Below are positions 10,555 to 26,444 of a stretch of 26,444 nt of DNA, in pieces (the stretch's first letter is position 1; every line of letters starts with the position of its first letter). Where the stretch lies: positions 1-26,444 of the IMG/VR virus record IMGVR_UViG_3300045431_000780. One strand, 5' to 3'. Both the position numbers and the translations under genes were made by a program. The notes under the pieces were generated by a model, which was not told the origin of the DNA, made no database searches, and was given only the letters and a program-made list of their open reading frames with translations. The DNA is from a virus.

Positions 10555-10561
10555 CTATTAT

Positions 10562-11128: not shown

Positions 11129-11182
11129 AAATTGGTTTAGCGACAAGAAGGCCGCAGAAAAACTATATTACAATTAAGTGTA

Positions 11183-12174: not shown

Positions 12175-12504
12175 TTATTTATTCTTATCGATAATAGACT
12201 TATATAAATAGGCAATACTTGGAAAGGTAAACCAACATAAAGGAATAAAATAATTTGGAAGGCTAAAAAATAGCCAAAACAAAGTACCGATTGACAAAGA
12301 ACACCAGAAAGAACTGCATATAAAGCACCCTAGTAATTTACCCAAAAAAGGACTCTTATATAAAAGTGCTGTTTCAAAATCCTCATTAGACGAAATACTT
12401 TTACTAAAAAATAAGCGTCCAATACTCGTTCTAAATGGACTGTAAAACCAAATCAGTAAAAGAGTAAGTGTTACCCCAAGAGCTGAGAGATAAAATTCTA
12501 TCAT
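12175..12504 (-). CDS. Small inner-membrane protein (DUF1360-like pattern)
   Basis: 109 residues with three or four hydrophobic segments: about 3-22, 55-83 and 86-103. The middle holds LLGCFICSSFWCSL, close to the TCPFCVGFW-like pattern of small DUF1360 membrane proteins. That similarity is by eye and weak. The ATG at 12504 overlaps the stop of the dehydrogenase-like gene (ATGA). A role in the host membrane is inferred from hydrophobicity alone. Confidence 0.65.
   Translation of the reverse strand: MIEFYLSALGVTLTLLLIWFYSPFRTSIGRLFFSKSISSNEDFETALLYKSPFLGKLLGCFICSSFWCSLSIGTLFWLFFSLPNYFIPLCWFTFPSIAYLYKSIIDKNK
12176..12183 (-). promoter_or_regulatory. Start-proximal AATAAATA element
   Basis: AATAAATA on the minus strand, 6 nt before the ATG at 12169 and overlapping the end of the membrane-protein gene (stop at 12175-12177). 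Confidence 0.3.
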
Positions 12505-13268
12505 TTTAATCTGTGTAGTTTATTTATTTTTCTCATAAATTTTATAAGCTTGCTCCCAGTAAAAGCTTGAAATTCCATATTATCCTTCTCAAAGCAGTGA
12601 CCGCCCCAGCCTCTTAGCCCATCACGGCCAGGTACTTGTGTGTGGGAGCTACCAATACGATAATCTAATGTCATGAGCTCTATTATATTATTAAATGAAG
12701 ATTTAAGATTGAGTTTTTTATGTATATCGAACAATTCATTAAAAAAAGTTATTTTATAGGCCAGAAATGCATTTTCTGCATACTTAATTAATGCAGCGGT
12801 TTTAATATCGGTATATTTTATTATGTTGAGAGATTTAATTTTTGACTTTAGTATACAAGCTATTTTTTTACATCCATTTAATTTCCCTCCAAGTATAAGA
12901 AACGTTTGTGATTGAAAATCCTTAATATTAGAATGATGTGAAAGATACTCCGGGCTATATACAATATTGATATTGCTATAGCGCTTTTCTGCATTTCCAT
13001 AAAAATAAGGTGGGGCAGTAGACTTACAGCATACTACAGTATTTTTACTCATTAATACATTAAGTTCATTTAATACACTATTAAGCGTTTTGAATTTATT
13101 TCCACGCGGAGTATCTACACACACAAATACTAAATCATACTTTCTTGTTGAAACATCTTTTATGGTAAGTTTATTATATTTTGGATCAATAATATCTTTC
13201 TCCGTTTTACTAAAAATAGAGCTAATTGCTTTGCCTACATATCCATGGCCTATTATCAATATTCTCAT
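12501..13268 (-). CDS. UDP-glucose/GDP-mannose dehydrogenase-like protein, shortened
   Basis: NAD-dependent sugar-nucleotide 6-dehydrogenase family. The N-terminal Rossmann motif is GHGYVG (7-12). Catalytic positions by comparison with UDP-glucose dehydrogenases are K162 and N166 (KYAENAFLA), C225 and D229 (GGHCFEKD). The protein stops after 255 residues, soon after the catalytic Cys, so the C-terminal nucleotide-binding domain of the usual ~400-450-residue enzyme is missing. It may act on a different or smaller substrate, or work with a partner. The reading frame is otherwise clean, so this looks like a stable short form and not a decayed gene. It is coupled by ATGA to genes on both sides and opens the carbohydrate island. 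Confidence 0.85.
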   Translation of the reverse strand: MRILIIGHGYVGKAISSIFSKTEKDIIDPKYNKLTIKDVSTRKYDLVFVCVDTPRGNKFKTLNSVLNELNVLMSKNTVVCCKSTAPPYFYGNAEKRYSNINIVYSPEYLSHHSNIKDFQSQTFLILGGKLNGCKKIACILKSKIKSLNIIKYTDIKTAALIKYAENAFLAYKITFFNELFDIHKKLNLKSSFNNIIELMTLDYRIGSSHTQVPGRDGLRGWGGHCFEKDNMEFQAFTGSKLIKFMRKINKLHRLK

Positions 13269-13444
13269 AATTTAATTCTTTCAATATACCTATCTCTAAT
13301 TTTTAAACGATCACACTCCTTACACTGTGTAGAGAAACTGTTTACCTCGCGTATATATTCGTCTCTCAGGATATTACAGTCTTTTATATTATCTGGACAA
13401 GGCCGACTCAGATCAAAAAACTGTAAAATTGTAGATATGTCCAT
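13265..13444 (-). CDS. Small four-cysteine protein (59 aa)
   Basis: Found by reading the gap between the dehydrogenase-like gene and the plus-strand GT8 gene. It starts at ATG 13444 and its stop overlaps the next start as ATGA. The cysteines are C16, C23, C41 and C44 (SRPCPD, KDCNIL, TQCKEC), followed by a basic helix (LKIRDRYIERIKL). The arrangement suggests a small zinc-binding fold. No named family is recognised. Divergent from 13500; the 55-base gap must hold both promoters. Confidence 0.7.
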   Translation of the reverse strand: MDISTILQFFDLSRPCPDNIKDCNILRDEYIREVNSFSTQCKECDRLKIRDRYIERIKL

Positions 13445-13466
13445 AGGTTAATATTAGTATTATATT

Positions 13467-13478
13467 TTGATTAATCAA
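13467..13478. promoter_or_regulatory. 12-bp perfect palindrome in a divergent promoter region
   Basis: TTGATTAATCAA, an exact palindrome, in the 55-base gap between the divergent genes starting at 13444 (-) and 13500 (+). Its position suits a dimeric operator, but AT-rich palindromes arise easily by chance. Confidence 0.3.
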
Positions 13479-13499
13479 TAATTTAGATTAAATTTTAAT

Positions 13500-14354
13500 A
13501 TGAATATGGCATTAATGTTTGCATTGAACGATAAGTTTATCCTCAGTATGCAAGTGTTTCTTTTAAGTATTTTGAGAACTAATCCCTGGTTTAATAGTGA
13601 TATTTTACTTCTTTCCGATGGTGATTTATCTGATATGAATTTAAGTTTACTAAAAAATATTTATCCAAGAATAGTTAAAATTGATGCTAAGAGAAATGAT
13701 TATACGGGCTGCATGCCAACTACACAAGTATGGGGATATAACTTATTTTATAGATTTGATGTTTTCGAAATGGGACATCTAGGATACGAAAGAATAATAA
13801 TAATGGATTCTGATATGGTGGTGTTAAAAGATATTAGTGAGCTTTTAACTTACAACTATGATTTTGCATCATGCGAGAAACATTTAGGTATACCGGAGAT
13901 AGGCCCCGACGATCCCAGAATAAGAGATAGAAAAAGATTTAATTGCGGATTAATGTCTATTTCTAAAAAAATATTAAGACCTTATTATAAAGATAAATTA
14001 ATAAGAATTGCATCCAGTAGGAGTTGGTCTAGCGATCAACCAGTTTTTAATGTGTGTTTTGAAAATACAGTAGATTATTTACCACAGAAGTTTAATGTTG
14101 TTAGCTCTATTGCTACGGAGAAAAATCTTAAAGAAGCCTGTATAATACAATATCATGGTTTTATTAAGCCTTGGCACTCTAGTGATGCAAGTAAATGCTT
14201 TGAGCCGTTTGTGCTCGAAGAACTAGAAAAAACCTCATTAAACGTACAGTCTACTTCAAATACATTAAAGCAAATCTTCGATGAATATGCTATATTATGT
14301 TCCTCAAGCACACAAATGCCTCTGCAAACTCTGAATCACACTCCATTCCTCTAA
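13500..14354 (+). CDS. GT8-family glycosyltransferase
   Basis: 284 residues, retaining GT8 (glycogenin/LgtC-like) glycosyltransferase. The metal-binding DxD is D103-S-D105 (IMDSDMVV). Family motifs FNCGLM (147-152) and YHGFIKPW (218-225) are present, the latter holding the His and Lys near the sugar donor. It would transfer a hexose from a UDP-sugar to a glycan or protein. No membrane segment is seen, so it is cytoplasmic. It is the only plus-strand gene in the island and ends inside the convergent deacetylase gene (65-base overlap), which suggests it was inserted or inverted there. The second GT8 at 14976 is only a distant paralogue. Confidence 0.9.
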   Translation: MNMALMFALNDKFILSMQVFLLSILRTNPWFNSDILLLSDGDLSDMNLSLLKNIYPRIVKIDAKRNDYTGCMPTTQVWGYNLFYRFDVFEMGHLGYERIIIMDSDMVVLKDISELLTYNYDFASCEKHLGIPEIGPDDPRIRDRKRFNCGLMSISKKILRPYYKDKLIRIASSRSWSSDQPVFNVCFENTVDYLPQKFNVVSSIATEKNLKEACIIQYHGFIKPWHSSDASKCFEPFVLEELEKTSLNVQSTSNTLKQIFDEYAILCSSSTQMPLQTLNHTPFL

Positions 14355-14946
14355 ATCTAGCTAATGTCTCTAATCCTTTCGCAGATCTTGGGTGAGGCTC
14401 AACCATAAGCTCGCCATCATAACAAAGCAGTGATTTAACTTTAATATTAAATTCCTCCGCTGTCAATTTAATATAATGATTTGGAACGAACATATTATGC
14501 GGTATTTTTATAGATTGATCTGTAGAGCTTGCTATTTCTCCAACAAAAAATTTTCTAACCTTCAACCCTCCCCAAACCCGTACTAGTCTTGAAACACACT
14601 CATAAGTTATCTGATGATCTTGATGATTATCACCCCAGAATGTTGTATAAACAATTGAAGGTTTTAAATCGTATAATGCAGATTCAAGAGCTCGGAAGAG
14701 AATGAGCGGATTATCTGAGATAGTTAACTCAGGTATATGCAGGTATCTTATACCGTGATATTTTAAAATACTTTTAGCAATTTGCGTACATTCAATCTGT
14801 CGTTCTGATCTCAAGTCATTAGGGGCTGCGCCTCGTTCAAATACTACCGTTACATCATCACCGGCCTGCACATGCTTTTGAATAGCACCAGCAAATCCTA
14901 TTGCCTCATCATCACCATGAGGTACTATTACTACAACCTTTTCCAT
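14290..14946 (-). CDS. PIG-L / LmbE-family deacetylase
   Basis: 218 residues. Zinc-binding motifs PHGDDE (9-14, the PHPDDE signature with Gly for Pro) and DNHQDH (106-111) are intact, so the enzyme should be active. Family members remove an acetyl group from N-acetylglucosaminyl or related amino-sugar conjugates. Here it would unmask an amine on a sugar, which fits the nearby aminotransferase and acetyltransferase genes. The 3' end overlaps the GT8 gene tail to tail by 65 bases. Starts at ATG 14946 with TACAATAAA just upstream. Confidence 0.9.
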   Translation of the reverse strand: MEKVVVIVPHGDDEAIGFAGAIQKHVQAGDDVTVVFERGAAPNDLRSERQIECTQIAKSILKYHGIRYLHIPELTISDNPLILFRALESALYDLKPSIVYTTFWGDNHQDHQITYECVSRLVRVWGGLKVRKFFVGEIASSTDQSIKIPHNMFVPNHYIKLTAEEFNIKVKSLLCYDGELMVEPHPRSAKGLETLARFRGMECDSEFAEAFVCLRNII

Positions 14947-14948
14947 AT

Positions 14949-14957
14949 TTTATTGTA
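14949..14957 (-). promoter_or_regulatory. TACAATAAA element before the deacetylase gene
   Basis: TACAATAAA on the minus strand, ending 2 nt before the ATG at 14946 and within the 29-base gap after the GT8 gene that ends at 14976. Same nine bases as before nrdB and the tail-fibre gene. Confidence 0.3.
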
Positions 14958-14975
14958 TGTGTAATATCATGTTTA

Positions 14976-15809
14976 TCAAGATAAAATCTCGTTACATTTT
15001 TTTTGATAGTATAAAAATCTGTCTCTAAGCTTTCTTAACTTAATATTGTATAAAAACTTACCGTTATTCTTTATAAACGAGTCAACTATATGACTATCAA
15101 ACTGTTCTTTTAATTTATTGGATTGCCACGGCTTCTTGCTACCTATAAAATGAAGATTAGTAACGTTAATATCAACATCTGGCGTAATCTCATCTGTACA
15201 ACAATTAATTTGTTTTGGAAGCCAGGCTATTTTTTTGTCTAAAAAGTATGTGTTGAATATAGGTTCGTTACCTACCCATTTTCTAGAAAGAACATTTTTA
15301 TCTAATGGAGGTTGACTGTTATAAATTTTTAACAGCTTTGTTTTTGTATCTTCTAGCAGATATTTTTCATCTAATACCATTAAGCCAGCATTGAAGCCCT
15401 TGCGTCCTTCAATTTGATTAATATGCGTACGCCTGGCAGCTCCAAATTCTATATCCGGGCTAATAAAGTTTTCTATATTGTTTTGAAAGATAATATCAGA
15501 ATCAAAATAAACAATCTTTTCATATCCTTTAATGAGAAAAAGGTCAAACCTGTATGCACAATTATATTCCCATAATCTATATTTTGTATCAAAATTATTC
15601 AAAATATAGTCATTTAAACTCACTTTCTTATAAATTATATTTTTATAAATTTTGCTTATTCTATTTTTATTATCTAAGGAAATTTCATCCCAATATAAAA
15701 TAATCACATCTCTATTGAAATTCTTTATAGAGTGAATTAAAGAGTAAAGAGTAATTATAAAGCCAAAAACTGCATCATTTGAAAGAGTGGTTGTATACGC
15801 CAATTTCAT
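14976..15809 (-). CDS. GT8-family glycosyltransferase
   Basis: 277 residues with D103-S-D105 (YFDSDIIF), GFNAGLM (138-144) and LHFIGSKKPW (219-228), the complete GT8 motif set. It probably transfers a hexose from a UDP-sugar in the cytoplasm. It shares only motifs with the GT8 at 13500, so the two likely have different acceptors. The ATG overlaps the stop of the GT32-like gene (ATGA), so the two are translated in sequence. Confidence 0.9.
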   Translation of the reverse strand: MKLAYTTTLSNDAVFGFIITLYSLIHSIKNFNRDVIILYWDEISLDNKNRISKIYKNIIYKKVSLNDYILNNFDTKYRLWEYNCAYRFDLFLIKGYEKIVYFDSDIIFQNNIENFISPDIEFGAARRTHINQIEGRKGFNAGLMVLDEKYLLEDTKTKLLKIYNSQPPLDKNVLSRKWVGNEPIFNTYFLDKKIAWLPKQINCCTDEITPDVDINVTNLHFIGSKKPWQSNKLKEQFDSHIVDSFIKNNGKFLYNIKLRKLRDRFLYYQKKCNEILS

Positions 15810-16549
15810 AGTAATTTATGTTTTTTAAGTAGATTATAGTATAATGTAGTTGGAATGGGATTGTTAAAATTTCTTTTTATGGAATAATCCCACTGACCGG
15901 TTGATATAGCTTCATTACACCAATGTAATGCGTACTCTGGTAATATCTCTTTCTTTAAAAATATACCGATATTCAACATTTGTCTAATATCCTCGATATT
16001 ATCATTACCAAACCATTTAATAGGTGCCAGATATTTTTCTAAAGAAAACTTCTTTATACAATCACGGAGTATTTCTACAGGCTTTACCCATCTATTATTA
16101 TCTTGATCTATAAACTTTTCAGTTAGAAGTATGCATTCATCTAGAAACGGAGCATTTTTAGGTGTTTTGATAATATTACCTACAATTTCTACTTTATTAT
16201 GAGGTCGAATAACATATTCTTGATTGTTTAATGGTGTAAAAGATTCCAAGCATGTTACATCCATATCACTATACCATCCGCCTATGTTTTTCAACAAATA
16301 ATATCTAAAAAGATCAGAGAACCCTCCATAGCTACCAGCTCTACAATCCCCATTACCTTTATAAGCGAATATTCTTGCTTCAGGCAGAATTTCATTTGCA
16401 TCTCTCTTTATAGTGCCCTCAGGTATATTCAGACAATTTTTATCATATAACCACAAGACAGGGATATGTTGATGGTCTAGAAAAGATTTTAAGGTTAGCT
16501 GTTCAAGCTTGCCAATGCTGCTACCTATCCATAAAAAATTAATTTCCAT
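15806..16549 (-). CDS. GT32-like (DXD sugar-binding) glycosyltransferase
   Basis: 247 residues. I choose the ATG at 16549 over a TTG two codons upstream. FSDLFRYYLL (77-86) and GGWYSDMDV (90-98, DxD at D95/D97) are the Gly_transf_sug/OCH1-type signature; NFLWIG at the start is also typical. These enzymes add hexoses, often mannose or galactose-type sugars, in capsule, LPS or glycolipid assembly. It overlaps the end of the unknown gene upstream by 11 bases and is coupled by ATGA to the GT8 gene downstream. Confidence 0.88.
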   Translation of the reverse strand: MEINFLWIGSSIGKLEQLTLKSFLDHQHIPVLWLYDKNCLNIPEGTIKRDANEILPEARIFAYKGNGDCRAGSYGGFSDLFRYYLLKNIGGWYSDMDVTCLESFTPLNNQEYVIRPHNKVEIVGNIIKTPKNAPFLDECILLTEKFIDQDNNRWVKPVEILRDCIKKFSLEKYLAPIKWFGNDNIEDIRQMLNIGIFLKKEILPEYALHWCNEAISTGQWDYSIKRNFNNPIPTTLYYNLLKKHKLL

Positions 16550-17420
16550 ATGCAAACCACGGTAAGGGGTAAAGAATTTCTGGCCAAGTACTTAAAATAT
16601 CTCTTATATTCTTACAGTTGTCAAATATCTTTTCATTAATATCTACAATAGCCTTTCTATATTCAGCGCTTTGTAAAATGTATTCCTGTCTTTCTTCCTC
16701 AGCTAAATTTTTACTATTGGCTATTAAATCCTGTAAGGTTTGGTCTATATAGATTAATGCATTTTGTTTTTGCTTATCTATCTCATAATACCACAAATTT
16801 TTAACTGCATCTATGATCTGACTATCATCAGTGTTTAGAATATCATTTGTAGCACCTATTTGCTTTAATCCTGGTAAAATATATTCTTTGTTATAACGAG
16901 CAATAAAATATTTTTCAATTGCATCTTTTTTAATTTTACTAACAATGGTTTCCGTGGTAAGGTCAATTGACGCTTTTTTGTGAAATCTTATTGTATAGCT
17001 TGATTTAAGTAACTCTTGATTAACATTCTGACATGGTTCAAGTATTTCTAGTAAATAAGAAATGTACTGCGCTTTTTGCAGCTTTATAAAGTTTGCTATT
17101 TTTTCAACATAGGATTCATCTTGTAAGAGAAAGTCTTGACCATATCTTAGAGTAAGACCTACATTTTTTGTTAAGTCTTCTATATATACTCCTGGGGGAA
17201 GTAATTGATATTCTAGCATTTCAAGATTATACTGGTTTATATCTACTGAAGTTCCTAATATAATATCAATATAATCTCCTTCGCATTGCTCAATACCAAA
17301 TAAATTTGCATGCTTATTGCTGCATATAGTAATAAATTTTTGTATTAATCCGTCCGAATAATACAGCTTAATTATTACGCCACGCTCTAAAAGAGTTGCC
17401 GCAAGAGAGGCAAGCTGCAT
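16539..17420 (-). CDS. Unknown protein with C-terminal WPEI-P-P motif
   Basis: 293 residues from the ATG at 17420, two bases after the upstream stop; the longer frame reading (to 17492) runs into the dioxygenase gene and is less likely. No family recognised. It is mostly alpha-helical with an N-terminal alpha/beta piece (MQLASLAATLLERGV). The last ~90 residues resemble those of the product of 22304-23200: a helical stretch with LW, then a terminal W-P-E-I-x-x-P-x-P motif ending in Tyr-rich residues. The repeated use of this tail beside glycosyltransferase genes suggests a shared role in the island. The tail also faintly resembles tail-fibre assembly chaperone ends (YRKAI-D-I near 255), which is not convincing. 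Confidence 0.7.
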   Translation of the reverse strand: MQLASLAATLLERGVIIKLYYSDGLIQKFITICSNKHANLFGIEQCEGDYIDIILGTSVDINQYNLEMLEYQLLPPGVYIEDLTKNVGLTLRYGQDFLLQDESYVEKIANFIKLQKAQYISYLLEILEPCQNVNQELLKSSYTIRFHKKASIDLTTETIVSKIKKDAIEKYFIARYNKEYILPGLKQIGATNDILNTDDSQIIDAVKNLWYYEIDKQKQNALIYIDQTLQDLIANSKNLAEEERQEYILQSAEYRKAIVDINEKIFDNCKNIRDILSTWPEILYPLPWFAYGN

Positions 17421-17421
17421 A

Positions 17422-18297
17422 TTACGCCCGCCAAAAGCGCATTTCCAAAGAAATTCGAGTACTATCTGTATTGAAATTAAAGCCACCGCCATGAATTAAG
17501 TACGGTGTGAAAACCATAGCTTGATTCAACTTTGGGTTAGGGGTAATAAGATTTAATCCATGAACCGAGCTAACAATAGCTGGATTTGTAAATTTTACAC
17601 CATTAACATGAACATTTCCGTAAGTTCTTGTTATATCTTTTTCTGACCATAGATGGCTTTTTGGTATTACTGGGAGAGACGAATTTTCATTACTACCGGC
17701 TAAGGGGTAATAAATATTAACAGCTTTCTTCCCTTCTGAACCACCACGCTCTAAATGATTATCACGGTGAGGGGGATTATTATCGCTAAACTTTTGAGGT
17801 CTCACTATTCTAACCCAAAAACATTTTGTTTCAAAAGTCTTGCCATCGCCTATATCAAAAACTTTTCTACCTACTACAGAACATTTACATATTTCACTTA
17901 TATGTTGCTCAATTCTCTCCAATGAAACTGGTAGTTTATCAAGCGGTATCCCACCGGTACCGTCGCCACCAGCTCTAATTTGTTCCACCACCTGTAAATG
18001 TGTTTCGTCTGTTACAAACTTGTGATAGGTTTCTAGAGTAAACCCATCTGTAGGAATATTTAGTTCCCCCATCGTGGTTATTAACCCAACTCTGGATGCC
18101 TCTCGAATTAATTCATTTTCCTGAGGGGTTAAAAATTCTTGTACAGTATAACCTACGTCAGACCAGTCTGATTCGTAACTAGGGGGTTTGTCTCTATTGA
18201 AAAGAATCACATCATCCCCAGAAGCAATGTTATCTGCCGAAACTCGAACTTCAATTGGACGACTATTAATAGTCATCTTAGATAAGTATTCAGTCAT
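17422..18297 (-). CDS. 2-oxoglutarate/Fe(II)-dependent dioxygenase (phytanoyl-CoA hydroxylase type)
   Basis: 291 residues with a double-stranded beta-helix iron site: H177-x-D179 (PPHRDNH), distal His near 269 (LIHGGG), and Arg 281 (STRISLEMRF) to bind 2-oxoglutarate. SLPVIPKSH (207-215) is the usual loop before the second half. It would hydroxylate or otherwise oxidise a small molecule, lipid, sugar or protein. No substrate can be read from sequence. It overlaps the aminotransferase gene upstream by 8 bases, so it is in the same translational unit as the aminotransferases. Confidence 0.9.
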   Translation of the reverse strand: MTEYLSKMTINSRPIEVRVSADNIASGDDVILFNRDKPPSYESDWSDVGYTVQEFLTPQENELIREASRVGLITTMGELNIPTDGFTLETYHKFVTDETHLQVVEQIRAGGDGTGGIPLDKLPVSLERIEQHISEICKCSVVGRKVFDIGDGKTFETKCFWVRIVRPQKFSDNNPPHRDNHLERGGSEGKKAVNIYYPLAGSNENSSLPVIPKSHLWSEKDITRTYGNVHVNGVKFTNPAIVSSVHGLNLITPNPKLNQAMVFTPYLIHGGGFNFNTDSTRISLEMRFWRA

Positions 18298-18925
18298 ACT
18301 TAATTAATTTATCCCCACTCCTAGCATTTTCAATATTATATTTCGAAAGATCTGGGTATTCATTACAAATGTCATCATTATAGTCGGGCATACTATCTAA
18401 AAGCCATAAACCTCTTGCCGCATCTATATTTGTCATATAAAAATTCCACCCTATCATATTAAAGTTACAGTTATTATAGGGAGTTTGATCTCGTCCGTTA
18501 AATCTTGCTAGCTTTAACCACTTTACAGCGTTCTCATCATCTGTCAAAATCATACCCCCCCTTCCTATTTTTAAATGCTTTTTTGCATGGAAAGATAGGC
18601 AATGTAATCCTCCAAAATACATGTTTTTTGTAAAACGGGTCGCTCCATCATATACAGGTAAAGGCTTTAATTGATATAAACCGGTCCATACTAATTCTTC
18701 TAACCTTACTTTATAACCAGCATGTATAACAGAACATGGAACGGATATATAAGTTTTTTTAGGTATTGTAATGGTTAATTCAGGTTTATTAATATACTTC
18801 AAGCACAAGAATAATGCATTACTGCATGAATCGACTGCCACAGCATATTTTGAACCGGCGTATAACGCCACAGCGCGCTCAAACTGCTCTACTACAGTAA
18901 AAGGATCAGTGTTTTGCATTGTCAT
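18290..18925 (-). CDS. DegT/DnrJ/EryC1/StrS-type PLP aminotransferase, short form
   Basis: 211 residues covering the large domain of sugar aminotransferases. AVDSCSNALFLCL (30-42) is the cofactor-phosphate region, D93 (VYDGA) pairs with the pyridine nitrogen, and K116 in SFHAKKHLKIGRGG is the Schiff-base lysine. The usual enzyme has ~370-400 residues; the C-terminal small domain is missing. It would transfer an amine to a keto-sugar nucleotide, if the short form is active (perhaps as a dimer). The start lies 20 bases inside the truncated paralogue upstream. MTMQ has a second in-frame ATG at 18919. Confidence 0.85.
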   Translation of the reverse strand: MTMQNTDPFTVVEQFERAVALYAGSKYAVAVDSCSNALFLCLKYINKPELTITIPKKTYISVPCSVIHAGYKVRLEELVWTGLYQLKPLPVYDGATRFTKNMYFGGLHCLSFHAKKHLKIGRGGMILTDDENAVKWLKLARFNGRDQTPYNNCNFNMIGWNFYMTNIDAARGLWLLDSMPDYNDDICNEYPDLSKYNIENARSGDKLIKYD

Positions 18926-19187
18926 ATATAGGATATGGAACTAACTGATAAATACCTGACCAGTCATTTCGTATACTATCAAATATTACCTCCCCGCCTG
19001 CATTTATTATAGACTGTGGAACAGAAAGATATGTTTTGCTGGGTATGGTTACTTTTGTTACTTTTAAATATTTGCAATATAAAAAAATAGCATTTGTACA
19101 GTTATCAACAGCAATTGCGTAAGGAGAACCTGTATACGTAGCTATCCTTTGCTCTAACTTATCTACTAAGGTGAAATCATTATTCAT
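18906..19187 (-). pseudogene. Truncated duplicate of the DegT-type aminotransferase (N-terminal part)
   Basis: 93 residues closely parallel to residues 1-95 of the next gene: AVDNCTNAIFLYC, TIPSKTYLSVP, WSGIYQL and YPIYDNA align to its counterparts. It keeps the PLP-nitrogen Asp but ends just before the Schiff-base lysine, so it cannot be a working transaminase by itself. The stop falls exactly at the start region of the intact paralogue, as if a longer copy had recombined there. It may be a remnant, or a kept subunit that dimerises with its neighbour. It has a good ATG (19187) and overlaps the GNAT gene's stop by 8 bases, so it is still translated. Confidence 0.7.
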
Positions 19188-19650
19188 ATAATAAATTAAG
19201 TTGTATGTTATCTATATGAAGTTTACCCGTCTTTAATGTTTTAAACATATATAAAAATCCCTCTAGAGCGCGTTTGTTATTAGGATTTATTCTCACATAA
19301 AACTTAGTTAGTTTTCTCAGTTTTATATATTGACACAGCATCGAAAACCCGAGTTCAAAACTCTTTCTTTTTATTTGTTTTAAGCATTTTCTTAATGTTG
19401 CAAAATCGTAATTATGAGTAATGGAGCCGTTTTTGTTGTGTCCCACTATTCCTAGGGGAATATTTTTGTAGTAAACTATACTAACATCGTAAAACGCCGT
19501 TTTTAAGTTTTTTTTATGTTCTTTGTATGAAGGTAGGTCACCAGGTAGAACAACGGCATTAGAAAACATATACCTTTGTTTTAGTAAGCTATATGTGTAA
19601 TCAACATGATTAGTATTTTTTAAGTCTATAGATTTAAATTGTAACTTCAT
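19180..19650 (-). CDS. GNAT-fold N-acyltransferase (sugar-amine type likely)
   Basis: 156 residues. MKLQFKSIDLKNTNHV at the start, DVSIVYYKNIPLGIVG (strands beta2-3) and NPNNKRALEGF near 122-132 (the N-x-A---GF acetyl-CoA region) match GNAT-type acyltransferases of the sugar-amine group. It would acylate an amine, such as that made by the aminotransferase next door. The diphosphate-binding Q/R-x-x-G loop is weak, so the activity is less certain than the fold. Starts inside the halogenase gene (17-base overlap). Confidence 0.7.
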   Translation of the reverse strand: MKLQFKSIDLKNTNHVDYTYSLLKQRYMFSNAVVLPGDLPSYKEHKKNLKTAFYDVSIVYYKNIPLGIVGHNKNGSITHNYDFATLRKCLKQIKRKSFELGFSMLCQYIKLRKLTKFYVRINPNNKRALEGFLYMFKTLKTGKLHIDNIQLNLLYE

Positions 19651-21151
19651 TGAATGCTTCGTTCAAGAACGTGTTGTATTCTTTTGCCTTGGAAACGATT
19701 TTATCATTCCATTCTTTGTATATATTATCATCGATAAAATCAGCGGGAATGCTTCCTGTATAAATGTTGCTCCCTCTTAACATTGTCACCCAGTTCCATG
19801 CAACAAATTGAGATTCGTACTTCTTAAGCAACGGCTTGGTTAATAAGCTCGCTACTCTACGTTTGCAAAAAGTAACATTATTATTATAATTCTTCTTAAA
19901 TTCCTTCCAGAACGATGTATCATCTTTATTAGCTAAACAGTAGTGGGAATAGATAAAATCTCTAACGTAGTCAAATTCTCTATTCATAATTCTGTTATAA
20001 ACTTTTTGAGCACTATCGCTCCATTCTCCTTTTTTATCTAAAAGCATTTTTATTAAAAAATTTCCGAGTACTGTTAAAGATATGCTGTTAGCCTCGAGTG
20101 GTTCAACAAATCCAGAGCTAAGACCTATAGAAATTATATTTTTATAACATTGATTTGTATTTTTACCGCTAGTAAACTTTAATTCCCGAAGAATATTAAC
20201 CTTTTTTCCTTTTTTTTGCCAGTATTCTGCTAAGGTCTGCTTTGCTTGTTCAACGGTAGTGTGCTTAGAACTGTAAACAAAGCCGCTGCCAATTTTATTA
20301 TATAAAGGTATCACCCATACCCATCCATCCTTGTAGGCTGTTGATGTTGTGTATGGTACTCTCAACTGCTCCTCGTCGTTTTCATAGAAAACCCGTCCTG
20401 CTACTGCACTATCACACAATAATTCATTATATGGCTTAAAGTTTGCAAACTTATTGATTAGAATTTTATGAAAACCAGAGCAATCAATAAACAAATCACT
20501 AGTAATTTTTTCACCATTATCTAGGGTTACAGATTTTAGGTATCCATCAGAGTTTAGTGTAGTATCTACTATAGCTTTGTTTATAAATGTAATGTTTGAT
20601 CGCGATTTACATATATGCTTAAAAGCATTGATTATTAATTCCGCTTCTGTATGATATGCATAACCGGGATGTGAAATATTGAGCTTACTACCGGTTAGAG
20701 AATAGGGTGATTTGTTATTTTTAAGTAGTGCATATAATTCTGTAGACCTAGCGTAGTATTGCTCTTCATTGAAATTTACTCTATCTAGTAGTTCTATATG
20801 CTTTATATCTGTATCTGGGTATCTATTATTATTTAAAATGTTAGAGTTTATATAAGTAGTCTCTCCAAATAAATGAAACCAGTTAGACTGGTCACATGAC
20901 CAGTTTTCGAAATTAACCCCATATTTTAATGTACCGTTAGTCCTACGAATAAAATCAAGTTCATCAACATTACATAATCTAAGAAGTTCGGTAAGATTAG
21001 GTGTTGTACCTTCACCTACACCTATTATAGGTATTTTTTCACTTCCTATAATATTAAAATGAATATCTTTGAAGACACTAGATAGATATGTAAGAGTAAT
21101 CCAGCCCGCACTTCCCATTCCAACTACAGTAATGTTCTTAACCTTTAACAT
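19634..21151 (-). CDS. Flavin-dependent tryptophan-halogenase-family enzyme
   Basis: 505 residues. The FAD-binding motif is VVGMGSAGW (9-17). IGVGEGTTPNL (43-53) and NGTLKYGVNFENW (72-84) follow, with K76 matching the catalytic lysine (K79 in PrnA) that relays hypohalous acid. GWVWVIPL (276-283) is the family W-x-W-x-I-P signature that blocks mono-oxygenation, and GFVEPLEANSIS (347-358) holds conserved acidic residues. It needs a flavin reductase and a halide; the reductase is not in the window. The family includes halogenases encoded by marine cyanophages (VirX1 type), so a related activity is plausible, on an unknown aromatic or glycan-linked substrate. It is coupled to the GNAT gene and to the DUF6356-like gene. 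Confidence 0.9.
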   Translation of the reverse strand: MLKVKNITVVGMGSAGWITLTYLSSVFKDIHFNIIGSEKIPIIGVGEGTTPNLTELLRLCNVDELDFIRRTNGTLKYGVNFENWSCDQSNWFHLFGETTYINSNILNNNRYPDTDIKHIELLDRVNFNEEQYYARSTELYALLKNNKSPYSLTGSKLNISHPGYAYHTEAELIINAFKHICKSRSNITFINKAIVDTTLNSDGYLKSVTLDNGEKITSDLFIDCSGFHKILINKFANFKPYNELLCDSAVAGRVFYENDEEQLRVPYTTSTAYKDGWVWVIPLYNKIGSGFVYSSKHTTVEQAKQTLAEYWQKKGKKVNILRELKFTSGKNTNQCYKNIISIGLSSGFVEPLEANSISLTVLGNFLIKMLLDKKGEWSDSAQKVYNRIMNREFDYVRDFIYSHYCLANKDDTSFWKEFKKNYNNNVTFCKRRVASLLTKPLLKKYESQFVAWNWVTMLRGSNIYTGSIPADFIDDNIYKEWNDKIVSKAKEYNTFLNEAFNEVTI

Positions 21152-21386
21152 CTGTCATTTCTAACCATTTTTTTTCTATTTTTTGAATATGATGATGTTT
21201 TTTTATCTCATGATAAAGCTTTATAACTGTCATTATACTATATCTAGGGAACAATTGTGGAAAAAAGCTATGAATATAGCTCGCTATAGCACCTAGAAGC
21301 AGTCTAGTACCGTTTATTAAGCCATGCTTACAGTGATATGTATAAGACATACTACTTTCGACTAAATGCTCTCTTATAGACCGCAT
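21138..21386 (-). CDS. DUF6356-like small membrane-associated protein
   Basis: 82 residues. The pattern is REHLVESSMSYTYHCKHG near the start, then an amphipathic to hydrophobic stretch (LLLGAIASYIHSFFPQLFP, 30-48) and a helix with L-Y-H-E. That agrees with the small DUF6356 family (HP-x-x-V-G-x-T-Y--H, H-x-x-x-P-x-L-F), known from bacteria and phages. Function unknown. The stop lies inside the start of the halogenase gene (14-base overlap), so the two are probably made together. Confidence 0.75.
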   Translation of the reverse strand: MRSIREHLVESSMSYTYHCKHGLINGTRLLLGAIASYIHSFFPQLFPRYSIMTVIKLYHEIKKHHHIQKIEKKWLEMTDVKG

Positions 21387-21417
21387 ATTAAAATTATAGA
21401 ATACTTATACTAAAAAT

Positions 21418-22302
21418 CTATAAATACCAATGTCCATATTGTTTCATTGCGTCAATTTTTTCTATCAATCTTTTCTTTGGATCTGCATGAGAATGAAAAT
21501 TATAATGCACAAGATAGCAGCTATCTTTAATATGTTCTCTTAAGTATGGTATCTTCCACAGGCTTCCATTAGGAAATTCATATACAGATAAAATATTTAT
21601 ATCTATTTTAGACTGCTCTAACAAATCTCTATCATTGGATATTGTTTGAAGACTACCCCCCTGGACACCTCTTGGATATTTACTATACATTTCTTCGCTA
21701 GTATTTTTTTTAAGGTAATTTAGTACTTTATCTTTGGTGCTATTTGGTAAGTACATGACAGCACCATTTTTTCTTCCAAATTTTGCTTGTTCCGCAAGCC
21801 CCCAGTCGGATACTGTTTTTTTATTATGATCTATAGTTATAATTTGATCTTTTTTACGTTTATATGTAAATGGATCAAAGCGTCTATCTGATGCCATAAC
21901 CATATCATGGTTTAAAGATTCTTCTGCTAGACGTGGTATAAAATTTCTAAAAAATATTATATCTGTATCTAAATGTATCAGATTTACGGGGTAATTTTCG
22001 TATATATAAAGTACAGCTTTAGGTTTAAAAATTTTTGCGTTTTCTATCCACTGGCTGGCAGTTTTATTGTTGATATTAGAATCTATTAACGCGCTTGGAA
22101 TGCTATTTGCTTGAAGTATATCGTATGATTTTTTGTCTAACGCTACTGCAAACGCTAATTTTTCTAATCTAACATGTTTTAATGATTCATACCAATTTAA
22201 TAGCATATCAACAAACTCAATAGTTGTACTAGTTATAAGCGCATCTTTTTTATTTTTAAAGAAATTATTAACGTTATCTATACCACTATCAAAAACACTC
22301 AT
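21418..22302 (-). CDS. GT77-like nucleotide-diphospho-sugar transferase
   Basis: 294 residues. HLDTDIIFFRN (110-120; DxD at D112/D114) is the donor site, and the C-terminal VHYNFH ... MKQYGHWYL (last 45 residues) is the typical ending of the GT77/DUF-type Nucleotid_trans family. It would transfer a pentose or hexose from a nucleotide sugar. The donor is not determinable. It starts one base after the stop of the unknown protein at 22304 (minus direction) and ends 31 bases before the DUF6356-like gene. Confidence 0.8.
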   Translation of the reverse strand: MSVFDSGIDNVNNFFKNKKDALITSTTIEFVDMLLNWYESLKHVRLEKLAFAVALDKKSYDILQANSIPSALIDSNINNKTASQWIENAKIFKPKAVLYIYENYPVNLIHLDTDIIFFRNFIPRLAEESLNHDMVMASDRRFDPFTYKRKKDQIITIDHNKKTVSDWGLAEQAKFGRKNGAVMYLPNSTKDKVLNYLKKNTSEEMYSKYPRGVQGGSLQTISNDRDLLEQSKIDINILSVYEFPNGSLWKIPYLREHIKDSCYLVHYNFHSHADPKKRLIEKIDAMKQYGHWYL

Positions 22303-22303
22303 T

Positions 22304-23200
22304 TTAATATGGATATAAAAGAGAGGGACCTGGGGCGAATATATCTGGCCAAAAATGTAATAATGCTCTAGGTGTTTTAAAAGTATCTAAATTTAATTCA
22401 TTAAATGTTTTGTCTAGTTCCTTTTTTATTAATTCAATTTCTTGAAGAGTTTCTGTATCGCTAAATTTTAACGCGCTTGTCTCCTCCTCATGAAGCAAAA
22501 GCTTAGCTCTCTCATAGGTTTCGCCTATTAAGATGTGCCATAATTTTCGCATAGGCTTCATTATTGTCTCGTTTTCTTGATTAAATTTAAAAAACTTTAG
22601 TTCAGGAATTTCAAAAGTTTTTAAGCACTCTGTAACCCAAGCAAATTCTTTGTCGAACAACTCTATAAATTCTTGTTGATTCGGGAATAATATATAGTAA
22701 AGCTTAACTCTAATATTATGTATATAATAATATTTTTTAGAAATATTATTATCTCTATAAAAAGTATCTAACGGTAGGTATTGCAATAATACTGAAGTAT
22801 CTTTAATTGACAAAATGTTTTTTTCTATTTCTTCACTAAACCTGTTTTTACAATAGGAATTTTTTAAAAAAGAAATAAGCTTTTTTCTATATGCTGCAGA
22901 AAGTATTTTTTCATCTCTACTTAAAAAACTCTCAATATCGACATTAAGTGCTCGTGCTAGGGTAAAATACTCCGATATTGAGTTGGCGTTTGCAATATTA
23001 ATTATTTTTCCTTTTTTCTTAAAATATTTTAATTCGTATTTGTTTACTGTATATTCTATAGACTTTACATCTATATTTGCCTCTGTATAGTCATAATTAT
23101 TAATAATACTTCTTCCTTTTAATAGATAATCTGTATGTAGCTTTGTATCACCACATATTGTGTATGTTATCTTGATTGGCTTGTCCGAGACTATATTCAT
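22304..23200 (-). CDS. Unknown protein with C-terminal WPDI-P-P motif
   Basis: 298 residues, helical and lysine/tyrosine-rich, no family recognised. The C-terminus (RALLHFWPDIFAPGPSLLY) matches the ending of the product of 16539-17420 (ILSTWPEILYPLPWFAY), and before it both have a KLW/NLW helix followed by ~60 helical residues. The N-terminus begins KITYTICGDTKLHTDYL, possibly the first strand of an alpha/beta domain. The ATG overlaps the stop of the radical SAM gene (ATGA). Perhaps a structural or acceptor partner for the adjacent transferases, but this is a guess. Confidence 0.7.
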   Translation of the reverse strand: MNIVSDKPIKITYTICGDTKLHTDYLLKGRSIINNYDYTEANIDVKSIEYTVNKYELKYFKKKGKIINIANANSISEYFTLARALNVDIESFLSRDEKILSAAYRKKLISFLKNSYCKNRFSEEIEKNILSIKDTSVLLQYLPLDTFYRDNNISKKYYYIHNIRVKLYYILFPNQQEFIELFDKEFAWVTECLKTFEIPELKFFKFNQENETIMKPMRKLWHILIGETYERAKLLLHEEETSALKFSDTETLQEIELIKKELDKTFNELNLDTFKTPRALLHFWPDIFAPGPSLLYPY

Positions 23201-24597
23201 ACATTATTAGGTTTTTTATACTTATAACCAATTATCGAATTTACAAAATCTATATATTGACTCTGTATAGATATATTGTCGGATAAAGACGCAATATGCT
23301 TAGAAAGCATCGCAACAATATTGTCAAGCTGTACATCATTTAAACTATGAAGACAGAATTCTGGAATAAGATTTTCTGAAGCTACTTTTACTTGTTCCAT
23401 ACTATCATCATTACCGGTCCATACGCTGGTATTATTTTGCTCTCCTTCATGTATACCTTTTATCTTGCCGCCTAGCGGTTTAGTTACAGTATTAATATAG
23501 AGACTAATATTATTTTTTATACAAAATCTAGCTACATCAGGTAGCTCGTCAACGTTTTGTATCATCGGACAAAATGCAATTGCAGATAGCTTTTGCATAG
23601 ATATTAATTCCTTAATATTCTTTATAACTATATCAAAATTACTATTTTTTCTGATTAATTCATAAGTATGCTTTTTTAATGAGTCTAGGGAAACAACTAT
23701 TTTCATATTACTATTTGTAAGATAATGAATAACTTTATTAGAAAGAATAGAGCCGTTAGTTGTTACGTAAATTGATATAGATGGTTTCTTGTTAATTATC
23801 TTGTCCCATATTCTATAATATAGAGGTGTTAGAAATGGCTCTCCCCCAAGAAAATTTACTATAGATAGATGATTGATAAATTCATCGAGCTCTTCTATAA
23901 ATCTTTCATCGTAAGGGGGTATAATTGGAGGAAGTTTTTCTCTATTTTTTCTAATAGATGAAGACCATTTTCCACCGCACATTATACATTCATAATTACA
24001 TATATTACCAAATTCAAATTCCATATTAACCGGCATATCAGAAACTATGGACTCATACACATTAAACTTTGTAAAAAGAGCATTATTGATATTGTTTGTA
24101 ACGGCTTGTAATTTGCATTTCTCACATCCCTTTGGAAAAATTGGCCTAGATAATATATCTATGAATTTCTGTCTTTCAGGATTATACCAAGCCTTGCGAA
24201 TTGTACTCTGAGGATACGTTCCTAATACAAAATAATTATTATAACAACACACTCGTATTTTACCTGAAGTATCAAAGTTTAATGTGGAATAAGGAGCTAT
24301 ACAACAATTTCTCTTATTATTGAATTTAAAGTCTACTAGGGGCTTATTGTATAGTGATTCTTCAGATAGTACATTATGTATAAAGCCTGCAATTGCATTT
24401 AAGGGAAGATTTTCTGAAATCGTTAGATAGTCTAATGCGGCGGTTAGAGATGTTCTGACTTTAACACGTGGGTTAGAAGTGAGTTCATATTCTAACTTTA
24501 CTTTAAAGTCTTCAATTGTAAAAGATGTATTTTTCTCTTTGTTTAGATTATCGAAGTATGTCCATGCCTCATTTATACGGCTATCATAATGCTGCAT
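23197..24597 (-). CDS. Radical SAM protein with N-terminal SPASM-like cysteines
   Basis: 466 residues from the ATG at 24597. I prefer this to the GTG 18 bases earlier because AAGGA lies just upstream. Radical SAM core: C200-x3-C204-x2-C207 (CNYECIMC), GGEP (251-254) and a strand with YVTTNGS. Before the core are extra cysteines (98/99, 117/118, 158/161), arranged like the auxiliary-cluster SPASM motifs but on the N-terminal side. Members of this class make sugar or peptide modifications such as epimerisation, C-C or C-S bonds. No substrate is evident. Overlaps the methyltransferase gene by 14 bases. Confidence 0.88.
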   Translation of the reverse strand: MQHYDSRINEAWTYFDNLNKEKNTSFTIEDFKVKLEYELTSNPRVKVRTSLTAALDYLTISENLPLNAIAGFIHNVLSEESLYNKPLVDFKFNNKRNCCIAPYSTLNFDTSGKIRVCCYNNYFVLGTYPQSTIRKAWYNPERQKFIDILSRPIFPKGCEKCKLQAVTNNINNALFTKFNVYESIVSDMPVNMEFEFGNICNYECIMCGGKWSSSIRKNREKLPPIIPPYDERFIEELDEFINHLSIVNFLGGEPFLTPLYYRIWDKIINKKPSISIYVTTNGSILSNKVIHYLTNSNMKIVVSLDSLKKHTYELIRKNSNFDIVIKNIKELISMQKLSAIAFCPMIQNVDELPDVARFCIKNNISLYINTVTKPLGGKIKGIHEGEQNNTSVWTGNDDSMEQVKVASENLIPEFCLHSLNDVQLDNIVAMLSKHIASLSDNISIQSQYIDFVNSIIGYKYKKPNNV

Positions 24598-25336
24598 AGG
24601 TTTCCTTTTGAGCACCTCTTGTCTCTATATAATTTAATATTCTATTAATTTGATCATTACTAAAAGTCTGTAGAGGCCCTTTATCCTGCTCCGTAGTAGA
24701 ATAGTCCGTCCAGTCTAAAATTACAAATTTGTTTTTATCAGTTAAAAACGATTCAAATAATGTTTTATCATGTAGAAAATTATTTCTAGGACTTCTAACA
24801 TTTGCAGCTATAATCATATCATATTTTTTTAAATCAAGCTCTTGAAATGGTATATTATAAAATGGTAGATTTATATTGAAATGCTCACACATATTTTTTG
24901 TTAAGCTCTCTCGGTGAGGAGTAAAGTCACATGCTTCAATATCTATATTCTGCATTTTTAAATAAATAGAAACTTGACCTACACCGCAGCCTATTTCAAG
25001 TATTTTTTTTTCGCTAAAGTAATTTTCGATAAGTGAAACAAGTAATAATTCTTTATCGGTAAAAATTTCATTTTTCTTTAGCTTATCATAATATGTGCCA
25101 GCAGCTTCACCCATCAATACACTCTCTTCTTGCAGATTATTAATTTTTTTTAATATTCTCACCCTGGTTGTTAATGATCTTAAGTGAGTACAAAATCTAT
25201 CGTTAAACTCCCTTATCCTACAGGCCTCATTTAACAATCGAATTAATCTTGACTGTGTATCAGATTTCTCATAGCTTGCTACAGCTTTCTGTAAATACTG
25301 AAGATCGTCTTTATTTAGCTGTCGAACAAATTTCAT
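24584..25336 (-). CDS. SAM-dependent methyltransferase
   Basis: 250 residues. EIGCGVGQ (114-121) is motif I of class I methyltransferases; ACDFTP (135-140) is the acidic SAM-ribose motif, and DMIIAANVRSPRNN near 175 is the post-II/motif IV region. Residues 1-100 are a separate helical region. It probably methylates a sugar hydroxyl or amine, or a small molecule of the pathway. Coupled by overlap to the GT4-like gene upstream and to the radical SAM gene downstream. Confidence 0.88.
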   Translation of the reverse strand: MKFVRQLNKDDLQYLQKAVASYEKSDTQSRLIRLLNEACRIREFNDRFCTHLRSLTTRVRILKKINNLQEESVLMGEAAGTYYDKLKKNEIFTDKELLLVSLIENYFSEKKILEIGCGVGQVSIYLKMQNIDIEACDFTPHRESLTKNMCEHFNINLPFYNIPFQELDLKKYDMIIAANVRSPRNNFLHDKTLFESFLTDKNKFVILDWTDYSTTEQDKGPLQTFSNDQINRILNYIETRGAQKETYAAL

Positions 25337-26264
25337 AATTCATTATATAGTCTAATGTGAGGTTTTCAATTTTAGTATGATATAGCATTTTATTGGAATA
25401 CTCCAAATTAACAATATTTTTTATGTCTAGGGTTGGGAGTAGCTTTTGCGCATACTTTATAAAAATATTCCTAAAATTATTCTGCTGTTCTATACATTTT
25501 GTTCTAATAATTTGTCTGTTGAATTTATCTATATTTGATAGCATAGTTCTTATAGCAGCCTCAAGCTCACTTTCACTATTATCTATTATAATAGAATTAT
25601 TTTCATTATACCAAATATGTCGCCCCCCCACACTCTTGGTGCTTATTACCGGTAGACCGCATAATAGATATTCAGTAGAAGCATAACATGATCCTTCTAT
25701 TGTCGACAGAGCAAGTCCTATCTTTGATTGATTTAAGCCGGTTGCAACATGATCATTTGTTACTTCGTTAAAGATATTGCAAGGATTATATTGATTAAGA
25801 TCATTTTCTGTAGTATTATATGTTATAAAAAGTGTTTTGTATTTTTTGTTGATATTAGCTAATAGTTTATGATTTTTCCATTGATAGTTATTAGCATTTA
25901 TTACTAAATCATATTTTTTTTCTGTATCATTTATACAATACGTGTTTGAATCAAGCCAACAATTTTGATTGCAATAAATAGAGTTTAAACCACTTTTCTT
26001 GTAAAAGATATTATCATTCATTGAGTTTGCAAGCATTGTCGTACAACAAAACTTGCTTAGGAGTTCATAATGTTGTAAGCCATCTTTGTGCCACCACGGA
26101 ATAATAAACGCATAAAGCCTCTTGTATCTGACTTTAAGTTGACTTAGTAGATGATAAACCTTTTCAAATAATAATTTATTGTGAATCCAGGTGCTTATAA
26201 AAAAGCCTATTTTATCATCTGAGCGAAACAGAATTTTAAAATTTATATAATCAGGTGTTATCAT
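25311..26264 (-). CDS. GT4-like glycosyltransferase
   Basis: 317 residues. The C-terminal half has the GT4 nucleotide-sugar site: an E-x7-E pair E190/E198 (IEGSCYASTEYL), then CGLPVISTKSVGG. The N-terminal half is an alpha/beta domain with LVINANNYQWKNH (120-132). It is somewhat shorter than the usual 350-400 residues of the family. It would transfer a sugar to a lipid- or glycan-linked acceptor. Its ATG at 26264 lies 14 bases inside the end of the gene that enters from the window's right edge, and its own stop overlaps the methyltransferase gene by 26 bases. Confidence 0.85.
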   Translation of the reverse strand: MITPDYINFKILFRSDDKIGFFISTWIHNKLLFEKVYHLLSQLKVRYKRLYAFIIPWWHKDGLQHYELLSKFCCTTMLANSMNDNIFYKKSGLNSIYCNQNCWLDSNTYCINDTEKKYDLVINANNYQWKNHKLLANINKKYKTLFITYNTTENDLNQYNPCNIFNEVTNDHVATGLNQSKIGLALSTIEGSCYASTEYLLCGLPVISTKSVGGRHIWYNENNSIIIDNSESELEAAIRTMLSNIDKFNRQIIRTKCIEQQNNFRNIFIKYAQKLLPTLDIKNIVNLEYSNKMLYHTKIENLTLDYIMNYEICSTAK

Positions 26265-26444
26265 CTAAATATGATTTGGTTTTTCCATCATAAATATAAG
26301 GCCACAGTCTCTCCAATGTCCATGCACAATAGCCATTACTTCTAATATCAGAAATATTTTCATATAAGTGTTTATAGAAATTATGTGAATGAAATTTTAT
26401 CCTAGATCGTGGAACTATTAACTGACCTCCAATATAAAAAATAA
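26251..26444 (-). CDS. DUF3431-like protein, C-terminal fragment (5' end outside window)
   Basis: Not complete; the minus-strand frame is open to the right edge and ends in TGA at 26251, giving 63-64 visible codons. The visible part has GGQLIVPRSRI, then FYKHLYENI and TLERLWPYIYDG. The pairing of a GGQ-V-R-RI strand, a FY--L helix and a closing ERLWPxIF-like motif fits the DUF3431 family of putative glycan-modifying enzymes. With the true start unseen, this is a family-level guess. It overlaps the GT4-like start by 14 bases, as in the rest of the operon. Confidence 0.6.
   Translation of the reverse strand, partial: IFYIGGQLIVPRSRIKFHSHNFYKHLYENISDIRSNGYCAWTLERLWPYIYDGKTKSYLDDNT

Follow-up and report, generated by a model that had tools for sequence, protein, structure and literature searches.

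What does a virus do with some 14 kb of nearly continuous, overlapping genes for glycosyl transfer, sugar editing and halogenation? The question is raised by IMG/VR record IMGVR_UViG_3300045431_000780, a virus fragment of 26,444 bases that we analysed whole and call the window. An original prediction, made from the letters alone, had singled out positions 12501–26444 as an island whose product might be a decorated glycan, a modified virion protein or a modified nucleotide. We favour, at a probability of roughly 55%, the reading that this island is of the host-recognition-cluster type and serves to glycosylate and tailor the phage's own fibres, with halogenation as one interchangeable step.

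A tight run of genes in conserved order

Gene spacing across 12501–26444 bore out the nearly continuous arrangement: this is a real island, a tight operon-like run of 17 minus-strand genes whose neighbours overlap or stand at most 31 nt apart, except at a gap of 1,021 nt that houses the single plus-strand gene, encoding a GT8 glycosyltransferase (13500–14354). From the 12501 side, Pfam matched UDPG_MGDP_dh, Glyco_transf_8 (twice), PIG-L, Gly_transf_sug, PhyH and DegT, and over the remainder Trp_halogenase, DUF6356, Nucleotid_trans, Radical_SAM, a methyltransferase fold, Glycos_transf_1 and a fragment of DUF3431. Five glycosyltransferases are among these (two of GT8 type and one each of GT32, GT77 and GT4 type), the number predicted as a minimum, and the deacetylation, hydroxylation, halogenation, methylation and radical SAM chemistry that had been proposed is likewise supported by the matches. 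The first half of the window holds T4-like backbone genes, including nrdB, nrdA, a tail collar fibre and a protein resembling a baseplate hub, whose family match is weak. The nrdA product is most similar to that of Pelagibacter phage HTVC008M (52.6%), and this match, together with the similarity of the portal protein in the related contig L109, marks the carrier as a T4-like phage, most likely a deep-branching one.

A near-identical order was found in IMG/VR contigs L106/L115, L107 and L109. It begins with a Peptidase_S74 fibre gene, a fibre companion, DUF3431, GT4, a methyltransferase, a radical SAM enzyme, WPEIL-A (one of the island's two members of an orphan family), GT77 and a variable slot, and continues with a 156-aa protein, a miniature DegT aminotransferase (mini-DegT), PhyH, WPEIL-B, GT32, GT8, PIG-L, the opposite-strand GT8 and a miniature UDP-glucose dehydrogenase (mini-UGDH). 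L109 lacks the stretch from DUF3431 to the radical SAM gene, and L107 has its PhyH gene elsewhere; in L002, L019, L021 and L121 most parts are kept in a scrambled but recognisable order. Outside the halogenase, the island proteins of the best relatives are 43–89% identical to those of the window. Absence of a common gene order in other phages had been named beforehand as the outcome that would speak against an island; the opposite was found, as the order is conserved in these contigs and the genes are therefore not independent in their occurrence. Overlooked at that stage had been the two miniature enzymes, WPEIL as a family, a DegT stub and the exchange of genes in the slot.

The island is linked to tail-fibre genes

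In L106, L107 and L109 the Peptidase_S74 fibre gene stands immediately upstream of the island; it belongs to PHROG tail-fibre families (by a match in L106 and by alignment in L107 and L109), and next to it lies the fibre companion, a conserved protein of 250–265 aa. The record stops inside the DUF3431 gene (26251–26442, minus strand), of which it retains the C-terminal end, 85–89% identical to the genes of L106 and L107. In the nearest relatives tail-fibre genes lie just past that point, DUF3431 being the first island gene behind them; the full genes of L106 and L107 encode 207–214 aa, and the complete protein of L106 matches the Pfam family with an E-value of 3.7e-16.

WPEIL-A (hyp298; 22304–23200, minus strand) and WPEIL-B (hyp317; 16539–17492, minus strand) form one orphan family (hhalign probability 100) with two copies per core island. 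Of the 19 copies from relatives, 16 have a glycosyltransferase gene as their next gene downstream, and so do both copies of the window (18 of 21 in all); in the window WPEIL-A precedes the GT77 gene and WPEIL-B the GT32 gene. The partners come from four families, GT77, GT32, GT8 and GT31 (the last in L121), and the WPEIL–GT77 and WPEIL–GT32 pairs persist in scrambled islands. The gene before WPEIL is the fibre companion in L003, L019, L021 and L109. Because they lie between fibre and glycosyltransferase genes, the WPEIL proteins are natural candidates for presenting the one to the other. The AlphaFold2 model of WPEIL-A (pLDDT 84.8) found no convincing fold match and is neutral on an adaptor role, speaking neither for nor against it. 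That WPEIL is a known tail-fibre chaperone was supported neither by structure comparison (E 0.19 in BFVD and 1.4 in PDB) nor by tblastn, which gave no phage match, and hyp317 used as a single-sequence seed retrieved no viral loci.

The likely timing of expression was judged from ATAAATA, a motif that we take to resemble the T4 late promoter. Within 60 nt before the relatives' genes it was seen 24 times against 2.7 expected (about ninefold), and in these contigs it precedes the genes for portal, S74 fibre, DUF3431, DUF6356 and the dehydrogenase (udpgdh) by 11–25 nt. Over the whole window TATAAATA was not enriched (5 seen against 8.7 expected); the enrichment applies only to positions before the relatives' genes.

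The halogenase occupies an exchangeable slot

The halogenase (19634–21151, minus strand) matched Pfam Trp_halogenase with an E-value of 8.6e-97 over 446 of 458 model positions. It carries the motifs GxGxxG (as GMGSAG) and WxWxIP (as WVWVIP) together with K76 and E350, and GMGSAG, K76 and E350 were invariant in an alignment of six phage halogenases. Its solved relatives are LooH, PrnA, RebH and VirX1 (E 4.1e-49 for VirX1). By these features it is a complete-looking enzyme of the PrnA/VirX1 type, dependent on flavin adenine dinucleotide (FAD) and predicted to transfer a halide to an aromatic substrate. To our knowledge, the established chemistry of PrnA-type halogenases does not extend to plain sugars, and we know of no natural substrate for phage halogenases such as VirX1.

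VirX1 of cyanophage Syn10 (PDB 6qgm) and PrnA belong to the same FAD-dependent family and share its conserved motifs with the window enzyme, to which the two Syn10 halogenases are about 25–26% identical. The tandem Syn10 genes adjoin genes annotated only as hypothetical, whereas the window halogenase sits in a glycosylation island. The Syn10 pair (L103:4491–7596) are 38% identical to each other, and one of them is itself annotated as a hypothetical protein.

The position of the halogenase is an exchangeable slot, with a hydroxylase as the alternative occupant. In the window, L106 and L109 the slot holds genes for DUF6356 and the halogenase, and in L107 and L002 its occupants are a full-length DegT and an Asp/Asn hydroxylase (for L107, E 9.5e-35). 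Two of 12 related records, a small number and fragments, carry a halogenase and four others carry the hydroxylase; none has both. The window halogenase is 32% identical to the L106 and L109 copies, a pair that share 75% identity; for the genes adjacent to it the identity between the window and these two contigs is 47–79%, and for its neighbours overall 47–85%. The DUF6356 gene (21138–21386, minus strand; Pfam E 3.4e-8; 70–74% identical in L106 and L109) adjoins the halogenase gene in all three known halogenase-bearing islands, and a search with DUF6356 found no further viral loci. We considered DUF6356 as a general halogenase partner and rejected it, as no halogenase adjoined it, within flanks of about 1.5 kb, in the Sphingomonadaceae loci that were checked. 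As a single-sequence seed the halogenase retrieved no viral loci, and two halogenase-carrying, unannotated fecal records, MT835646 and MT837902, had no full-length halogenase open reading frame in the stretches examined.

Two enzymes are conserved miniature forms

The dehydrogenase and the DegT enzyme are both conserved miniature forms, and two of the predicted activities stand with this qualification. Sugar-nucleotide oxidation is represented by a UDP-glucose dehydrogenase (12501–13268, minus strand; Pfam E 4.7e-15 and 4.3e-13) with NAD-binding and central domains and the catalytic Cys225; it lacks the C-terminal UDP-binding domain, for which there was no Pfam match, its chain of 255 aa ending after the catalytic cysteine. 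In eight relatives mini-UGDH measures 242–261 aa, with the catalytic residues C225 and K162 invariant; the solved enzymes that it matched have 393–495 aa. Matches of the same length, likewise devoid of the UDP-binding domain, occur in Microbacterium and Campylobacter (T4-like) phages.

Amination is represented by a DegT match (18290–18925, minus strand; Pfam E 1e-22, in two pieces) to a protein of only 211 aa, accompanied by a 93-aa stub of another allele. Mini-DegT shares its fold and pyridoxal phosphate (PLP)-site residues with DegT/DnrJ/EryC1/StrS sugar aminotransferases such as GDP-perosamine synthase and WlaRG, but has about 210 aa against their 360–400 or so; it lacks most of the small domain as well as a portion of the large one, and a C-terminal YPDLS motif, seen in a 37-row alignment, is unique to it. 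Profile positions 102–161 and those beyond 238 were unmatched, and the protein is accordingly not a full-length DegT chain. Aligned to GDP-perosamine synthase it has a complete set of PLP-site residues, and K116, D93, S111 and N161, which we take to be the PLP lysine, the pyridine-nitrogen aspartate, the phosphate-site serine and the partner-subunit asparagine, are invariant in 37 sequences of viral relatives. The AlphaFold2 model (pLDDT 87.7, pTM 0.85) superimposes on DegT sugar aminotransferases with a Z-score of about 20 over 199 residues.

A viral scan matched at least 90 mini-DegT loci, of which 80 were kept, and 79 viral copies measured 199–234 aa. Relatives also occur in bacterial and archaeal assemblies, including Prochlorococcus, where a weakly PhyH-like protein lies upstream, and Marinimicrobia, where the next gene appears by eye to encode a GDP-mannose 4,6-dehydratase. 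Mini-DegT, at about 190–240 aa, is apparently a widespread and undescribed DegT branch of phages and some bacterial and archaeal assemblies. That it is one enzyme split over two genes was rejected: the neighbouring gene is unrelated, often PglD-like, WbqC-like or an oxygenase. Named by eye rather than by Pfam, neighbours were PglD-like in nine of 16 clusters and WbqC-like in four.

The 93-aa stub (18906–19187, minus strand) sits between the variable slot and the intact mini-DegT gene. The closest allele to the stub is the mini-DegT of L109 (65%), whereas the intact copy is nearest to those of L106 and L019 (67–68%, against 52% to L109; the intact L106 copy was read from the sequence). The stub therefore looks like a recombination scar, left when a cassette came in together with the beginning of its own DegT gene. 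The 156-aa protein (19180–19650, minus strand), encoded immediately upstream of mini-DegT in every core island, had been taken for the acylating enzyme. We dropped this guess: neither the protein nor its relatives matched a Pfam or NCBIfam acetyltransferase model, GNAT included, and a nine-row profile matched no solved acetyltransferase.

Relation to known islands

An island of this kind has already been published, the host recognition cluster (HRC) of pelagimyophages, with tail fibres, GT8 enzymes, UDP-glucose dehydrogenase and radical SAM cassettes (PMC7029224). Like the HRC of pelagimyophages and cyanomyophages, the present island is a large variable island of T4-like phages with GT8 and other glycosyltransferases, and tail-fibre, glycosyltransferase and radical SAM genes were found together in L106, L107 and L109. 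It differs in its conserved order, its WPEIL–glycosyltransferase pairs, its miniature enzymes and its halogenase slot; the main text of PMC7029224 does not contain the word 'halogenase'. The pelagimyophage HRC lies between the vrlC and gp14 genes; the window and its nearest relatives are fragments. As far as our searches reach, the conserved order with its halogenase/hydroxylase slot, the WPEIL–glycosyltransferase modules and the mini-DegT family are new.

The cultured Synechococcus phage S-SCSM2R (PQ898602) has glycosyltransferases, mini-DegT, radical SAM, 2-oxoglutarate (2OG) oxygenases and PrnA in common with the island. There the glycosyltransferase run (L100:9580–16333) comes with an annotated inosamine amidinotransferase, the PrnA halogenase lies about 10 kb from mini-DegT, and no WPEIL family was seen. 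The aquatic Ostreococcus tauri viruses likewise have a hypervariable host-recognition region, with glycosyltransferases elsewhere in the genome, but they are eukaryotic algal viruses with genes unrelated to the island (PMC12906663).

Fibre decoration as the probable role, and its rivals

The position behind the S74 fibre gene, the late-type motifs and the adjacency of fibre, WPEIL and glycosyltransferase genes together lead us to favour a decorated glycan on the virion fibre, which combines two of the products first proposed. Virion glycosylation has a precedent in mycobacteriophages, according to work cited in PMC12619734. From these features we infer an acceptor, an order of steps, a late timing and a benefit to the phage. 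The operon behind the tail-fibre genes would be expressed late in infection, and the two WPEIL proteins would hold or present the fibre to their partner GT77 and GT32 enzymes. The GT8 and GT4 enzymes, whose family function is known, would lengthen the chain, presumably on the same acceptor, and the mini-dehydrogenase, PIG-L, mini-DegT, methyltransferase and radical SAM enzymes could oxidise, deacetylate, aminate, methylate or otherwise edit its sugars; the PhyH enzyme may hydroxylate sugar or protein. Because PrnA-type enzymes are not known to halogenate plain sugars, the halogenase would act on an electron-rich aromatic group, most plausibly a fibre Trp or Tyr or an aromatic decoration. With halogenation in an exchangeable slot, related phages would then display different fibre-decoration 'serotypes', comparable to the variation of surface sugars among bacteria. 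We offer as a tentative and rather unlikely elaboration that the whole is a serotype-like locus with a halogen-bearing fibre decoration and WPEIL adaptors, in which mini-UGDH and mini-DegT, lacking the parts that hold nucleotide sugars, edit fibre-attached sugars instead of free nucleotide sugars.

Several observations weigh against fibre decoration. A glycan or a halogen on the fibre is predicted from genes alone, and the window stops short of the end of the locus where the fibre genes would lie. In the window ATAAATA precedes nrdA, and no island gene from 12501 onward has it within 60 nt, so that the case for late timing comes from the relatives. Neither WPEIL model matches anything convincingly, with the E-values given above as the best, which leaves gene adjacency as the argument for adaptors. 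Phage halogenases also occur away from any sugar island, as in Sf-CH3 and in HTVC008M, where the gene adjoins terminase genes. Because other phages carry it outside sugar islands, the halogenase may not share a substrate with the island, and because phage halogenases also stand alone, it is the least certain island member.

The main rival holds that the island remodels the host surface polysaccharide (O-chain) in infection, masking the receptor from competing phages, and it is the change put forward for the glycosyltransferases of pelagimyophages by the authors of PMC7029224, where we propose fibre decoration. The enzyme kinds match bacterial O-antigen loci, and both Prochlorococcus and Marinimicrobia have mini-DegT relatives within surface-sugar islands, in the latter beside GDP-mannose-4,6-dehydratase-like genes. 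Yet in the relatives the operon follows fibre genes and has late-type motifs, WPEIL proteins tie its glycosyltransferases to those genes, Pfam found no membrane flippase, polymerase, ligase or O-antigen acetyltransferase among the island proteins, and a PrnA-type halogenase has no evident lipopolysaccharide substrate; we regard host remodelling as unlikely, while taking it seriously. If, instead, there were no common pathway and the region were a hot spot at which unrelated auxiliary genes accumulate behind fibre genes, the lone halogenases of other phages and the scrambled order in more distant relatives would be accounted for. This is improbable, as nearly the whole order is retained although the proteins have diverged to 43–89% identity, and as the WPEIL–GT77 and WPEIL–GT32 pairs outlast the scrambling.

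The resemblance to a natural-product pathway noted in the original prediction holds for the chemistry, since the enzyme mix is like aminoglycoside-type tailoring, and related islands add a carbamoyltransferase, a glutamine amidotransferase and, by the S-SCSM2R annotation, an amidinotransferase-like gene. A small halogenated aminosugar metabolite, released or acting in the host cell, is nevertheless a distinctly poor candidate: Pfam found no polyketide synthase or non-ribosomal peptide synthetase domain, recognised exporter or resistance gene among the scanned island proteins, and the site behind the fibre genes is fixed. We give even less credence to glycan hypermodification of the phage DNA, after the manner of arabinosyl- or glucosyl-hydroxymethylcytosine in T4-like phages. 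Phage glycosyltransferases can act on DNA, and DNA glycosylation is described for T4-like phages; but the island lies in the fibre region, and none of the 12 related records, all of which may be fragments, encodes a thymidylate-synthase-type hydroxymethylase, contigs of 229,717, 193,220, 162,497 and 157,280 bases being among them. This disfavours the modified nucleotide that had been thought conceivable.

Fibre decoration, if correct, would make halogenation of virus particles a new phenomenon and would add to phage host recognition a layer of chemistry in which variation arises when cassettes are exchanged. The conserved island offers phage halogenases a concrete, testable substrate guess, the virion fibre or its glycan. 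Mini-DegT, which occurs in dozens of viral contigs as well as in several surface-sugar islands of bacteria, provides a test case for the minimal size of a PLP sugar aminotransferase.

Other genes of the island and the window

The plus-strand GT8 (Pfam E 2.4e-15) is 72% identical in L106 and L107, where it also lies on the opposite strand. The remaining genes are all on the minus strand: a PIG-L/LmbE-type sugar N-deacetylase (14290–14946; E 6.9e-17; 82% in L106 and L107), the second GT8 (14976–15809; E 3.3e-12), the GT32-type enzyme (Gly_transf_sug, DXD; 15806–16555; E 1.9e-8; 80–81% in L106 and L107), the GT77-type Nucleotid_trans enzyme (21418–22302; E 1.1e-11, and alignment), the S-adenosylmethionine-dependent methyltransferase (24584–25336; several Pfam models, best E 2.4e-5; 60–70% in L106 and L107) and the GT4-type enzyme (25311–26264; E 7.3e-7). 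The radical SAM enzyme (23197–24615; Pfam E 1.3e-14) is of the twitch-domain kind, by an NCBIfam N_Twi_rSAM match (E 4.6e-41) that is under the cut-off; it has a CNYECIMC core (CxxxCxxC) and, N-terminal to it, an auxiliary Cys cluster in a segment resembling that of BtrN. The PhyH-type Fe(II)/2OG dioxygenase (17422–18297; E 8.6e-5) retains H177-x-D179, H269 and R281, invariant in the alignment. HTVC008M has four neighbouring 2OG-Fe(II) oxygenase genes beside an annotated ferrochelatase in its structural gene region (L099:3668–5907) and a fifth directly before its halogenase.

Also encoded near the fibre genes of related islands are a UDP-galactopyranose mutase, a carbamoyltransferase and a protein of glutamine amidotransferase/Asn-synthase-like type (the loci are L019:16438–17880, L003:5169–6557 and L106:1077–2069). 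In the first half of the window, a 415-aa protein encoded on the minus strand (2394–3641) has no PHROG match; it apparently contains membrane segments, and its middle part is long and coiled-coil-like. Two neighbouring genes at 10066–11146 encode proteins of 162 and 194 aa; the second weakly matches an L-alanyl-D-glutamate peptidase family, and the first has, by eye, the look of a SleB-type wall hydrolase.

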